Positions 43,632 to 52,265 of a DNA stretch of 64,000 bases are shown here, piece after piece; position 1 is the first letter of the stretch, and each line of letters starts with the position of its first letter. Origin of the DNA: Pseudomonas maumuensis (GTDB lineage Bacteria > Pseudomonadota > Gammaproteobacteria > Pseudomonadales > Pseudomonadaceae); contig NZ_CP077077.1 of NCBI RefSeq assembly GCF_019139675.1, positions 3,844,001 through 3,908,000 of the forward strand, written 5' to 3'. The notes below the pieces were generated by a model. The model saw only the letters and a program-made list of their open reading frames with translations, was not told the origin of the DNA and did no database searches. Position numbers and translations under genes: made by a program.

Positions 43632-45230
43632 ATGAGCCAAGACACCCTGATCGAAGTCCGCGACCTGGCGGTGGAGTTCGTCACTGGCGAGCAGGTCAAC
43701 CGCGTGGTCGACGGCATCAGCTTCGACATCCGCAAGGGCGAGACCCTGGCCCTGGTCGGCGAAAGCGGCTCGGGCAAGTCGGTGACCGCCCACTCGATCC
43801 TGCGCCTGCTGCCCTACCCGCTGGCGCGGCATCCTTCTGGCACCATCCATTACCAAGGCAAGGACTTGCTGCACCTGGGCGAAAAGCCCATGCAGCGCAT
43901 TCGCGGCAACCGCATCGCGATGATCTTCCAGGAGCCGATGACCTCCCTGAACCCGCTGCACAGCATCGAGAAGCAGATCAACGAGATCCTCTTGCTGCAC
44001 AAGGGCCTCACCGGCAAGGCCGCCACGGCGCGCACCCTGGAGCTGCTGGAGCTGGTCGGCATTCCCGAGCCGCAGAAGCGCCTGAAAGCCCTGCCCCACG
44101 AGCTGTCCGGTGGCCAGCGCCAGCGGGTGATGATCGCCATGGCCCTGGCCAACGAGCCCGAACTGCTGATCGCCGACGAGCCCACCACGGCGCTCGACGT
44201 GACCGTGCAGTTGAAGATCCTCGACCTGCTCAAGTCGTTGCAGGCGCGCCTAGGCATGGCCCTGCTGCTGATCAGCCACGACCTCAACCTGGTACGCCGC
44301 ATCGCCCACCGCGTGTGCGTGATGCAGTGCGGCAAGATCGTCGAGCAGGCCGATTGCGCCACGCTGTTCAGCAAGCCGCAGCATCCGTATACGCAGATGC
44401 TGATCAACGCCGAGCCCAGCGGCGCACCGGCTGCGAATGCCGAAGGCGCGCCGTTGCTGGAGGTGAAGGACTTGAAGGTGTGGTTCCCGATCAAGAAGGG
44501 GCTGCTGCGCCGTACCGTGGACCATGTGAAGGCCGTGGACGGGGTGAACTTCAGCCTGCCCCAGGGGCAGACCCTGGGCATCGTTGGCGAGAGTGGCTCG
44601 GGCAAGTCCACCTTGGGGCTGGCCATCTTGCGGTTGATTTCCAGCCAGGGCGGGATTCGCTTCCACGGGCAGAATCTTGAGGGGCTGAACCAGAAGGAAG
44701 TGCGGCCGCTGCGGCGGGAGATGCAGGTGGTGTTTCAGGATCCCTTCGGCAGCCTGAGCCCGCGCATGTGCGTGGCGGATATCGTTGGCGAAGGGTTACG
44801 GATTCACAAGATCGGCACACCGGCTGAGCAGGAAGCGGCGATTATTGCGGCGTTGGAGGAAGTGGGGTTGGATCCGCGGACGCGGCATCGGTATCCCCAT
44901 GAGTTTTCCGGCGGGCAGCGGCAGCGGATTGCGATTGCGCGGGCCTTGGTGTTGAAGCCCGCGTTGATTCTGCTGGATGAGCCGACCTCGGCGCTGGATC
45001 GGACGGTGCAGAGGCAGGTGGTTGAGCTTTTGCGGAATTTGCAGGTTAAGTACAACCTGACTTATCTGTTCATCAGCCACGACCTGGCGGTGGTCAAGGC
45101 GTTGAGTCACCAGTTGATGGTGATCAAGCATGGGCAGGTGGTGGAACAGGGGGATGCGGGGGCTATATTTCATGAGCCGCGGCATGGGTATACTAGACAG
45201 CTATTGGAAGCTGCATTTTTGCAATCGTAG
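43632..45230 (+). CDS. yejF: Peptide ABC transporter ATP-binding protein YejF (duplicated ATPase)
   Basis: A 532-residue double ATPase. First half: Walker A GESGSGKSVTA, signature LSGGQRQRV, Walker B LLIADEPTTALD. Second half: GESGSGKSTLG, FSGGQRQRIAIARAL, LILLDEPTSALDRT. It energises the YejABEF importer at the inner membrane. From roughly 44450 on, codons shift from C-ending to G/T-ending use (TTG, GGG, GAT), although the protein stays canonical. The foreign AT-rich gene begins just downstream. Confidence 0.95.
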   Translation: MSQDTLIEVRDLAVEFVTGEQVNRVVDGISFDIRKGETLALVGESGSGKSVTAHSILRLLPYPLARHPSGTIHYQGKDLLHLGEKPMQRIRGNRIAMIFQEPMTSLNPLHSIEKQINEILLLHKGLTGKAATARTLELLELVGIPEPQKRLKALPHELSGGQRQRVMIAMALANEPELLIADEPTTALDVTVQLKILDLLKSLQARLGMALLLISHDLNLVRRIAHRVCVMQCGKIVEQADCATLFSKPQHPYTQMLINAEPSGAPAANAEGAPLLEVKDLKVWFPIKKGLLRRTVDHVKAVDGVNFSLPQGQTLGIVGESGSGKSTLGLAILRLISSQGGIRFHGQNLEGLNQKEVRPLRREMQVVFQDPFGSLSPRMCVADIVGEGLRIHKIGTPAEQEAAIIAALEEVGLDPRTRHRYPHEFSGGQRQRIAIARALVLKPALILLDEPTSALDRTVQRQVVELLRNLQVKYNLTYLFISHDLAVVKALSHQLMVIKHGQVVEQGDAGAIFHEPRHGYTRQLLEAAFLQS

Positions 45231-45378: not shown

Positions 45379-47469
45379 ATGGACAGCAAAAAACCCGAAT
45401 TACCGACCGCTCTGCAACTAGCGAACGAACTAAATACAACCCCTCAGGTGATACTGGATCATTTGAGAGCATCCGGAATCACCAAGACAACTGAAACCGA
45501 AATAATTACACACGAAGAACAAAGCATTATTAAAGATCGGTTACTCTCATCTAGCCAACCAACTCAATCCAAAAAAATAAAACTGGAAAGAAAAACAACC
45601 TCCACCCTAAGAATTGCCGGTTCAAAATCCATATCAGTAGAAATCAGAAAGAAAAAAGTATATATCCAACGAGCCCCTCACGATACGAAAGAAGAACCGT
45701 TGACCGAGGCCGAAAAAATAATTTCCTTTAGCAACGACCGAGGAGATGATAGTGCAAAAGCTGACCGCTGGATAAAGCCAACCTCAATAGAGGTTGAAAA
45801 CTTCAAAGCCATTAAAAAGCTAAACCTACCTCTTGCTGATGTCACAATCCTAGTTGGCCCCAATGGCTCCGGAAAATCATCAATTCTTCAAGCAGTTCAC
45901 TGGGCTGCTCGAGCGGCCAGCTATATAGAGCCAAAAAAACAGTCAGAAGTGGTATCTTTTGATCGATTAGACTACGCTCCGTCCAGCGAACCGCTGAAAA
46001 CAGCACATAAAGCTGAGCTTTCGTCCGCTCGAGATACACCTTCTACAATTGTTAGTTTCATCATCTCCAATGAAACTGACGAAAACCCAACTATTGCAAG
46101 TATTAAAATTTGGGCCGCGCGAAACAAGAGTGGCATTTCGGTACACATAGAGGGCGGTTCCGCAGTCACCCCATTCAAACAGCGAACTGAACTTATAACT
46201 GCCTACATCCCTGGACTGGCTGGACTTTCTGAAAAAGAAACAATCTTGGTACAACCCCTACTACGAAGGCAAGCTGCGAGCGGCGATGCCGGGGGAGTTT
46301 TACGAAACATCCTATTTAACCTATGGAACAGACAACCTGGCGAGATAGACGATACCAGTGCAACAATGCGGAAGGAGAGCCTTGATCGCTTTATACAAAT
46401 GATACACCCAGGTGTTTCAGTCAAAGTAACATTTGACGAACGTGAAGACTTCCATATAAACGTCACATTTGACGACGAACGCCTAAAAGGTGAAAGTCGA
46501 CCATTAGAAAGTGCAGCAACTGGAATATTGCAGGTTATTCAAATCTTTGCATACCTTGTGCTATTTCGCCCAAAGCTTCTACTCATTGACGAACCGGATG
46601 CTCACCTCCATCCAGATAAACAAGAGAAGCTGATAGAGGCACTAGAGCTGGCTGCAAGAGAGTTTAACACTCAAGCCATTATTACAACTCACAGTCCTCA
46701 CATAGTCCGTGGAGCCTCCCATACCTCAAAAATCTTATGGGTCAGAGATGGCCAAATAGTGAGTGAAGATGACAATCTAATAAAAAATCTACTTGGCTGG
46801 GGCGGTCTGAACAAAAAAATACTATTTTTCGTGGAAGATGAAAACGCAGAGCCTATCAAAGCAATACTAAAACAATGGCCAGAACTAGCCAAGAACATTG
46901 CCATATGTCGTTGCTTTGGCGTGGACAACCTTCCTCGCAACCCTTTACTAAAGGGATTAATTGGCGACAACAATCTAAACATAAAAGTTCTAATACACAG
47001 AGATCGCGACTTTATGACAGAACAAGATACTTTACTCTGGGGCGAAAGGTACAGCACCCCAGGCGTATACACCTGGATTACTGACCATGTTGATGCAGAG
47101 GCCTACTTTTGCCAACCTGAGTATTTATCCAACCTATACAATATCAGCCTAGAGCTTTCAAGCAAGATAGTAAGCCTCGCGATTTCCGACTGCAAAAACA
47201 CACAAAAAATATTTTTTGAAAAGCGTAAAACAATCAACAGATCGCTCTATGAAGATGGAGGCTCCGAAAGCTCAGAAAAACTATGGAACTTGCTGAATAA
47301 AGAATCCATCGAAACAACGGTAGGCAAAACACTACATCGAACATTAAAACAGCATCTAAAAAACCACAACCTAGATGAAAAAGAAATCAATCGTTTTGCG
47401 ACACCACAAAACCACGCAATAGCCATCTCCCTAAAAAATAAAATCGAAAAAATCCTTGAATCTTTCTAG
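45379..47469 (+). CDS. IF2-N-like domain fused to OLD-type ABC ATPase/TOPRIM nuclease
   Basis: A 696-residue, AT-rich standalone gene. Residues about 8-57 resemble the IF2_N helical domain. Residues about 65-98 (KIKLERKTTSTL, then GSKSISVEIRKKKVYIQR) resemble the next segment of bacterial IF2, recalled as KITLxRKTTSTL...GSKSISVEVRKKK. The ATPase follows: Walker A GPNGSGKSS at 160-168, weak signature ESAATGILQ about 378-385, Walker B LLLIDEPDAHLHP about 400-412, H-switch THSPH at 437-441. The C-terminal part looks like an OLD-family TOPRIM: Glu486 in FFVEDENAE, Asp542/Asp544 in HRDRDF, then DAEAYF. Such proteins include defence nucleases (OLD, GajA). No GajB-like helicase, integrase or second gene is adjacent. 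The IF2-like part is as AT-rich as the rest, so it is not a recent copy of the host infB. Confidence 0.85.
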   Translation: MDSKKPELPTALQLANELNTTPQVILDHLRASGITKTTETEIITHEEQSIIKDRLLSSSQPTQSKKIKLERKTTSTLRIAGSKSISVEIRKKKVYIQRAPHDTKEEPLTEAEKIISFSNDRGDDSAKADRWIKPTSIEVENFKAIKKLNLPLADVTILVGPNGSGKSSILQAVHWAARAASYIEPKKQSEVVSFDRLDYAPSSEPLKTAHKAELSSARDTPSTIVSFIISNETDENPTIASIKIWAARNKSGISVHIEGGSAVTPFKQRTELITAYIPGLAGLSEKETILVQPLLRRQAASGDAGGVLRNILFNLWNRQPGEIDDTSATMRKESLDRFIQMIHPGVSVKVTFDEREDFHINVTFDDERLKGESRPLESAATGILQVIQIFAYLVLFRPKLLLIDEPDAHLHPDKQEKLIEALELAAREFNTQAIITTHSPHIVRGASHTSKILWVRDGQIVSEDDNLIKNLLGWGGLNKKILFFVEDENAEPIKAILKQWPELAKNIAICRCFGVDNLPRNPLLKGLIGDNNLNIKVLIHRDRDFMTEQDTLLWGERYSTPGVYTWITDHVDAEAYFCQPEYLSNLYNISLELSSKIVSLAISDCKNTQKIFFEKRKTINRSLYEDGGSESSEKLWNLLNKESIETTVGKTLHRTLKQHLKNHNLDEKEINRFATPQNHAIAISLKNKIEKILESF

Positions 47470-51226: not shown

Positions 51227-52099
51227 CTAACGGCAACACAGGCACCCACCGACCCGCGGCTGATCGGGGTCGTTCCCGAGAAACGAGACCATCACCTCCG
51301 TGCCCATTTGCAAAGGCGTAACAGCACAAGGCCAATCGGAGGCCACCGTCAGCCAGCAACAGCTCTTGTCATCAAACCTGTCCTCGGGGTCCCACGGGAA
51401 TTTGACCTGAATCCTGGCAAGCCGGCGCTCACACGGGCTCTCGCCTGCCTCCACGGCGATGACGACGGCAGTCTGGCTCCCCGGCACCTGGGGTTTGGCA
51501 TGCACCAGGGGCGGACGATAGAGCACGCCCCACGGCAACACCGTCTGACCATCGGTGAACACCAGCACATGGCCTTGGATACCGTGCTGAAAGTGAAAGC
51601 GAATACCCTCCTCTTCACACAAGCGCTGGACGAAGTGCAGATCCGTTTCGCCGTACTGGGTGCAGTAATCGCGCTCGGGATAGCTCGAACTCAGCTCGAA
51701 ACGATAAGCGTCCCCCACGATCCCATGCTCTTCCAGGATCAAGGCCACGATCCTGGGCACCGAGAACTGTTGAAAGATTCTCTGGTTGATGCGATGGCGC
51801 AAGTAGGACAAATGCGGCACGAGGGTCAGCCTGTAGCGGATCGAACACGAGCCCTGCCCCAACTGCGCGATATGGTAGATCCGCCCATGGATACCATTGC
51901 CGTGCATGTCAAAGGCGAAGAACGCCTCAAGGTCGAGAAAGCGCTCGAGATCCAGAACAGGCCATTCGCTGGCAAGTTCCACGTTGCAGAAGTAAGGCCG
52001 GTTGGCCACCACTTCCCCGGTATAGCCGAGCACTTGAAAATCGTGCTCTACACCTTCGATTGTCAAACTCAGGTGCGTCTTATGGGCTGGGCTGAACAT
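51227..52099 (-). CDS. Truncated type VI secretion VgrG (N-terminal gp27-like and partial OB)
   Basis: A 290-residue fragment of a protein that is normally 600 or more residues. It has the VgrG N-terminus (HLSLTIEGVEHDFQVLGYTG), the gp27-like core (QYGETDLHFVQRLCEEEGI) and the OB-fold segment (VKFPWDPEDRFDDKS, GNDPDQPRVGGCL), then stops after CLCCR. The gp5 beta-helix needle is absent, and the following 115 bases do not restore it in another frame. A strong GGAGGAG precedes the ATG at 52099, so the fragment may still be translated. No other T6SS gene is nearby. Confidence 0.85.
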   Translation of the reverse strand: MFSPAHKTHLSLTIEGVEHDFQVLGYTGEVVANRPYFCNVELASEWPVLDLERFLDLEAFFAFDMHGNGIHGRIYHIAQLGQGSCSIRYRLTLVPHLSYLRHRINQRIFQQFSVPRIVALILEEHGIVGDAYRFELSSSYPERDYCTQYGETDLHFVQRLCEEEGIRFHFQHGIQGHVLVFTDGQTVLPWGVLYRPPLVHAKPQVPGSQTAVVIAVEAGESPCERRLARIQVKFPWDPEDRFDDKSCCWLTVASDWPCAVTPLQMGTEVMVSFLGNDPDQPRVGGCLCCR

Positions 52100-52265
52100 C
52101 CGCTGTTCTCCTCCGGCATAAGATGGGGATGAAGCACGCGAAAGCATCGCCCCGCCCAACTGGGCGCCATCAGACGATGTTTCACAAGTCACTTGAATCA
52201 GTAGGCCGCAAACGTGCTGCCCGATACCCACCGGCACAGGGCAGCTGGCGACACATCAACTCAGC

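Follow-up and report, generated by a model that had tools for sequence, protein, structure and literature searches.

Gene and domain layout

The 64,000-nucleotide stretch of Pseudomonas maumuensis DNA analysed here (the window) carries, at 45379..47469 on the forward strand, a gene for a 696-residue protein (P0001) in which an N-terminus resembling that of translation initiation factor IF2 precedes an ABC-type ATPase and a TOPRIM-like domain. The open reading frame (ORF), its length and its coordinates were re-checked and all agree with a preliminary description of this DNA. On the same strand follow one another an IF2_N-like domain (residues 13-53, 45415..45537), a basic IF2_assoc-like segment (residues 65-98, 45571..45672), a low-confidence linker (residues 99-130, 45673..45768; predicted local distance difference test score (pLDDT) below 50 over residues 59-128), the ATPase (residues 131-477, 45769..46809) and the TOPRIM-like C-terminal part (residues 473-696, 46795..47466), the last recognised from conserved acidic residues and predicted structure.

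The N-terminus was compared with IF2. Residues 10-106 aligned with the N-terminus of the resident IF2 of the same genome (P0126) with 43 identities in 99 positions (E 2e-22, single pairwise comparison), showing homology through the N-terminal domain and associated region of IF2. IF2_assoc was matched at 32.4 bits, above the Pfam cut-off of 24. A profile of 25 family members, searched against the PDB, matched 7uiu_x over positions 1-116 (E 2.7e-17), as well as 3jcj_f (E 7.5e-11) and 1nd9 (E 1.7e-4); all three are named 'Translation initiation factor IF-2', and we take them to be P. aeruginosa and E. coli proteins. These matches bear out the IF2 origin proposed in the preliminary description, which had also made an IF2_N profile match a test of its proposal. 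Such a match is present in the window protein (E 0.0014), but it is weak there, its 18.8 bits not reaching the Pfam cut-off of 25.3. Among the 25 chosen members, IF2_N was matched by 23 and IF2_assoc by 20 (E up to 1), and several listed homologues bear the automatic name 'IF-2 N-terminal domain-containing' or 'IF-2 associated domain-containing'. Two members carry a single piece by our reading of the domain matches by eye, P0045 having IF2_assoc only and P0087 IF2_N only. In the predicted structure the IF2_N-like domain has helices at residues 11-17, 22-31 and 45-58 (block pLDDT 82-85 over residues 11-50), and the IF2_assoc-like segment is modelled as disordered (block pLDDT 30-35). Unlike IF2, neither the window protein nor the 25 members had the translational GTPase domain among their listed Pfam matches.

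The ATPase is of the SMC/PtuA/AriA-like ABC kind (Pfam AAA_15, 98 bits; AAA_21, 95.5 bits). Its Walker A motif GPNGSGKS (residues 160-167, 45856..45879) is invariant in all 25 members, as are D404 and E405 of the Walker B motif LLLIDE (residues 400-405, 46576..46593); some other relatives have the Walker A variants NSSGKS or NGGGKS. The first TOPRIM acidic residue, E486 (46834..46836), and both aspartates of the DxD motif D542-R-D544 (47002..47010) are invariant in the 25 members and in 34/34 rows of a more diverse set, and they sit at the ends of strands 1 and 3 in a confident predicted structure. No Pfam TOPRIM family was among the matches listed for the window protein or the 25 members; the nearest solved folds of this domain are AriB, the tRNA nuclease of PARIS, and the C-terminal regions of OLD proteins. 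Because the TM-scores (template modelling scores) of whole-model Foldseek searches were poor (0.24-0.34 by query length), structural statements are made at domain level. By these motifs the protein is a member of the OLD family, with an ABC ATPase bearing Walker A and B and a C-terminal TOPRIM bearing E and DxD, and both nuclease and ATPase activity are predicted. The OLD-like architecture and the retention of E486, D542 and D544 across the family, both put forward earlier, were thus recovered.

Likeness to known systems

The window protein most resembles the Class 1 OLD proteins, which are encoded by single genes outside multi-gene systems. P2 Old, the OLD protein of T. scotoductus (TsOLD, 6p74) and E. 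coli YbjD/OldB are likewise single genes with an ABC ATPase followed by TOPRIM. TsOLD was matched by Foldseek at 6.3e-14 with a low TM-score, and Pfam DUF2813, presumably the YbjD family, scored 32.2 bits (cut-off 21). The window protein differs from them in the about 130 residues of its own, with the IF2-like part, before the ATPase. Class 1 OLD genes are rare, being found in 0.45% of bacterial genomes (PMC13261556). PARIS (Class 4, with AriA and AriB split or fused) may be a further relative: the PADLOC AriAB model gave 74 bits and the fold is nearest to the AriB chain. AriA and AriB are two genes, whereas here one chain carries an IF2-like N-terminus. Gabija GajA (8sm3, 4.0e-13) and the retron Eco8 effector (9lpa, 2.8e-14) have the OLD architecture in common with the window protein, both Foldseek matches being of low TM-score. 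In contrast to Gabija (Class 2) and retrons (Class 3), neither a helicase nor a reverse transcriptase was found by Pfam among the nine ORFs downstream of the window gene, and no GajB-like helicase was seen upstream by eye; retron noncoding RNA was not searched for.

Distribution of the fusion

The homologue search gave 748 proteins at E up to 1e-30, of which the best 120 were analysed together with P0001; since they were ranked by likeness to P0001, the list favours fusions. The IF2-like part, scored with a profile of IF2 N-termini at no less than 18 bits, was found in 78 of the 121 proteins and occurs in eleven named genera; the other 43 proteins score at most 1.1. At least one of the latter, P0073, was scored without it through a late gene start, as the matching Paracidovorax ORF (L015) has it. 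The preliminary description had regarded homologues lacking the N-terminal part as evidence against it, and here the outcome is divided: 78 of 121 keep the part, but 43 are without it, at least one of them by late gene start.

The body of the protein is rare in whole genomes. It was found in 9 of 398 genomes of the genus, the window genome included; the IF2 part was present in 2 of the 7 genus loci read by eye, and in the two that complete the nine the match does not start before residue 95. Loci L007 and L008 were left unclassed. The body was found in 1 of 369 genomes of the class and in 1/399, 2/144 and 1/65 genomes of three Burkholderiales sets. These class and Burkholderiales counts include the starting genome, so only one of those searches found another.

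Phage sequences were also searched. Five phage-collection records match the genome's own IF2; three are annotated IF-2/infB and two are unannotated, one of which, phage Y6 (L012, OQ572408.1), was read as infB. The Y6 match is an UNVERIFIED record with Pseudomonas nusA-infB and was dropped as apparent contamination. Scanning IMG/VR with aligned N-termini of IF2s and fusions gave no hit, a weak negative because the known fusion copy L092 was missed as well.

One OLD-like protein from a metagenome (P0098, 965 residues, 6 kb contig) has a DNA ligase adenylation domain (PF01653, 182 bits) in place of the IF2 part. This single protein hints that other host proteins can serve.

Repeated gain or replacement of the IF2 piece, and its divergence

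The history of the IF2 piece was examined with two trees. In a tree of 77 N-termini the 35 fusions did not form one clade (approximately unbiased test, p 4e-4), and a single fusion clade was still rejected (p 9e-5) when the test was repeated with 73 rows, four having been dropped: the fusion of Ideonella and, for their long branches, two other fusions and one IF2. Fusions assigned to Pseudomonas formed one clade with Pseudomonas IF2s in the 73-row tree (support 100/96). A tree of the bodies (104 rows, quick method, LG+G4) placed 60 of 61 fusions inside one clade of 64 (SH-aLRT, the Shimodaira-Hasegawa-like approximate likelihood ratio test, 99), and the fusion of Ideonella MAG2, a metagenome-assembled genome (MAG), lay among IF2-less proteins as sister of an Aquabacterium protein (97). 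For this tree 25 rows, close relatives or short versions, had been omitted by hand and 8 further rows were lost to the P-loop pattern; fusions P0035, P0038, P0042 and P0049 are absent. The trees indicate that the N-terminus was replaced from host infB within the main clade, or converged on it, and that there was a separate gain in Ideonella. As far as sequences can tell, they show that the IF2 piece was gained or replaced more than once.

The captures differ in their closeness to infB. In Ideonella the IF2 part is 89% identical to the own infB in amino acids and 85% in nucleotides over 55 codons, and the body has a lower G+C content at third codon positions (GC3, 0.52) than the IF2 part (0.70). 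This gain looks younger because it is close to its own infB in DNA and its GC3 is unlike that of the body. The IF2-like part of the window protein is 44% identical to its own infB in amino acids and 46% in nucleotides, uses the same codon at 9 of 43 shared residues, and has a GC3 of 0.37 against 0.75 in infB, all in agreement with the earlier claim that it is not a recent copy of the host gene. In each of 16 hand-picked pairs the first 98 or so residues had diverged further than the body, the linker being equally variable in some.

These data also bear on the idea that the 5′ end of infB was taken only as a start and expression leader, without any binding role. The closeness in DNA of the Ideonella capture would fit it, as would the 43 family proteins that do without the IF2 part. 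On the other hand, the part is kept in 78 of 121 proteins of a list biased to P0001 likeness and across the eleven genera, IF2_assoc is retained where IF2_N is gone, and the window likeness is left only at protein level. We therefore consider such leader capture unlikely.

Match between the IF2 piece and the host lineage

Fusions from eight genomes were each paired with their own IF2 and compared with 43 IF2s, rank ties being broken by sorting. The own IF2 ranked first for Pseudomonas PDM16, Burkholderia SRS and Paracidovorax, second for P. phymatum, third for Pseudacidovorax, fourth for B. aenigmatica and for the window protein (with three other Pseudomonas IF2s above), and 20th for Ideonella MAG2; for Paracidovorax and Pseudacidovorax the comparison covered IF2_assoc alone. 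For the Ideonella MAG2 fusion the best two IF2s were those of Ideonella and Aquabacterium, its own IF2 being without IF2_assoc. Across the eight genomes the closest IF2s thus came from the host itself or from close kin. The mean identity of the true pairing was the highest of all 40320 permutations, and also the highest of all 720 within the six Burkholderiales. A count over 29 sites that separate two IF2 panels, made for fusions of named hosts, pointed the same way: six fusions from Pseudomonas or Stutzerimonas hosts had 76 Pseudomonas states versus 33 of the other panel (174 cells), and nine fusions of other named hosts had 140 of the other panel's states versus 18 of Pseudomonas (261 cells).

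In the infB of Ideonella MAG2 (L120, G771:C1:1495274 onward) an in-frame gap of about 170 residues relative to two relatives removes IF2_assoc, and the nuclease of this genome carries an IF2_assoc segment that its resident infB lacks. Of the 16 genomes searched within the genus, the 15 others match the whole IF2_assoc segment of infB. The gap could be a collapse in the MAG assembly.

Proposed mechanism and its rivals

At the level of sequence, the protein would be a host-protein mimic fused to an effector that is immune-type by family likeness. Our tentative first choice is a stand-alone Class 1-type OLD-like ATPase-nuclease, probably acting in anti-phage abortive infection, whose sensor is an integrated decoy from host IF2. 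We favour this decoy or sensor reading because the IF2 piece is fast-changing, matched to the host lineage, repeatedly gained and placed ahead of an OLD-type effector; a role in defence is suggested by the relatives of the protein. By analogy with AriA-AriB, the resting ATPase would keep the TOPRIM nuclease inactive. The mimic would then be hit by a phage product that takes over translation by binding or modifying the N-terminal region of IF2. The phage T7 kinase is reported to act on IF2. Contact with the mimic, together with the ATP state, would free the nuclease, and from its fold the TOPRIM would cut nucleic acid, most likely tRNA as AriB and P2 Old are said to do, so that translation stops. 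AriB cuts tRNA once phage triggers release it from AriA (PMC12409363), and P2 Old is said to cut host tRNA (PMC13261556).

Two results temper this decoy reading. The partial Mantel test given body distance (r 0.34) was not significant, 3291 of 40320 permutations being as high (p 0.08), and therefore fusions plainly fit their hosts down to family or genus, and any closer fit may be no more than shared ancestry with the body would give. The phenotype of YbjD did not need TOPRIM (PMC13261556), a caution that here, too, the effector may comprise more than the nuclease.

A close rival, which we regard as possible although not our choice, is that the IF2-like part is a docking tag that brings the nuclease to where IF2 sits on 30S subunits or initiating ribosomes, so that it would sense the state of translation or cut tRNA or mRNA there. 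This explains most of the same facts. The N-domain of IF2 contacts the 30S subunit, the folded IF2_N and the basic IF2_assoc are both kept, with each alone in some members (P0045, P0087), and the TOPRIM resembles a tRNA nuclease. Docking needs neither the lineage match nor the fast divergence, as a ribosomal partner is expected to be more conserved than a mimic, but lineage-matched capture followed by drift would leave the same pattern. A guard arrangement, in which the mimic shares with the IF2 N-terminus a binding partner, a host protein or RNA, and fires when a phage displaces it, appears improbable. For Gabija, which also belongs to the OLD systems, a response to phages antagonising RecBCD has been proposed (PMC12407980). 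Guarding of a hypothetical partner would account for the host-lineage matching. Such a partner might, for example, be one in replication restart, in which IF2 isoforms have a role.

For the favoured decoy reading, plant NLR (nucleotide-binding leucine-rich repeat) receptors with integrated decoys are a good analogy, as they too join a piece of a host protein to an immune-type ATPase and acquired it recurrently, although the proteins are unrelated. It is a more doubtful possibility that there is a bacterial counterpart of integrated decoys in general, namely single-gene immune receptors with sensors captured from essential host proteins (many from IF2, at least one from NAD-dependent DNA ligase), the infB of the host lineage having been drawn on several times.

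Should the IF2 piece serve as bait, this would point to phage attack on the N-terminal region of IF2 and to bacterial immune sensors made from parts of essential host proteins; should it serve as a docking tag, it would connect an OLD-type nuclease with the initiation of translation. For OLD proteins either finding would be new, within the literature examined. The IF2-like part is not mentioned in the Class 1 section of an OLD review or by a term search of its available text (PMC10568477), IF2 is not mentioned in the YbjD paper (PMC13261556), and a term search of the available text of the Cran1 paper, on an archaeal OLD protein, gave no mention of it (PMC12796447). Provisionally, with a limited literature search, the fusion is undescribed.

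Locus and neighbouring genes

The gene stands alone; by eye, an ABC transporter gene lies upstream of it, with its end at 45230. Of 14 related loci inspected by eye, 8 have instead a fabI-like frame after that transporter gene. The GC content of the gene is 0.42 against 0.63 for the window, and six other fusion genes likewise have a GC below that of their loci. No common neighbour was seen across seven fusion loci including the window (by eye; 8 ORFs of one scanned with PHROGs), and one fusion lies on a 73.9 kb IMG/VR contig with helicase, HNH and ParB-like genes. A non-defence function has a precedent in Cran1, which has a reported housekeeping or cell-cycle role (PMC12796447). For the window gene we judge it very unlikely, given that the gene is rare, patchy and AT-rich, has no shared neighbour in the loci read and has one copy on a phage-like contig.

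Four of the nine downstream ORFs were matched by Pfam, as DUF3077, a GNAT acetyltransferase, a VgrG-like piece and a solute-binding protein. The VgrG-like piece (51227..52237, reverse strand; Phage_GPD, 139.6 bits) lies between the nuclease and the solute-binding protein gene, and the small ORFs beside it are without Pfam match. At the Ideonella locus, a transposase-like ORF (by eye; L034:10565-12256, reverse strand) adjoins the fusion gene.
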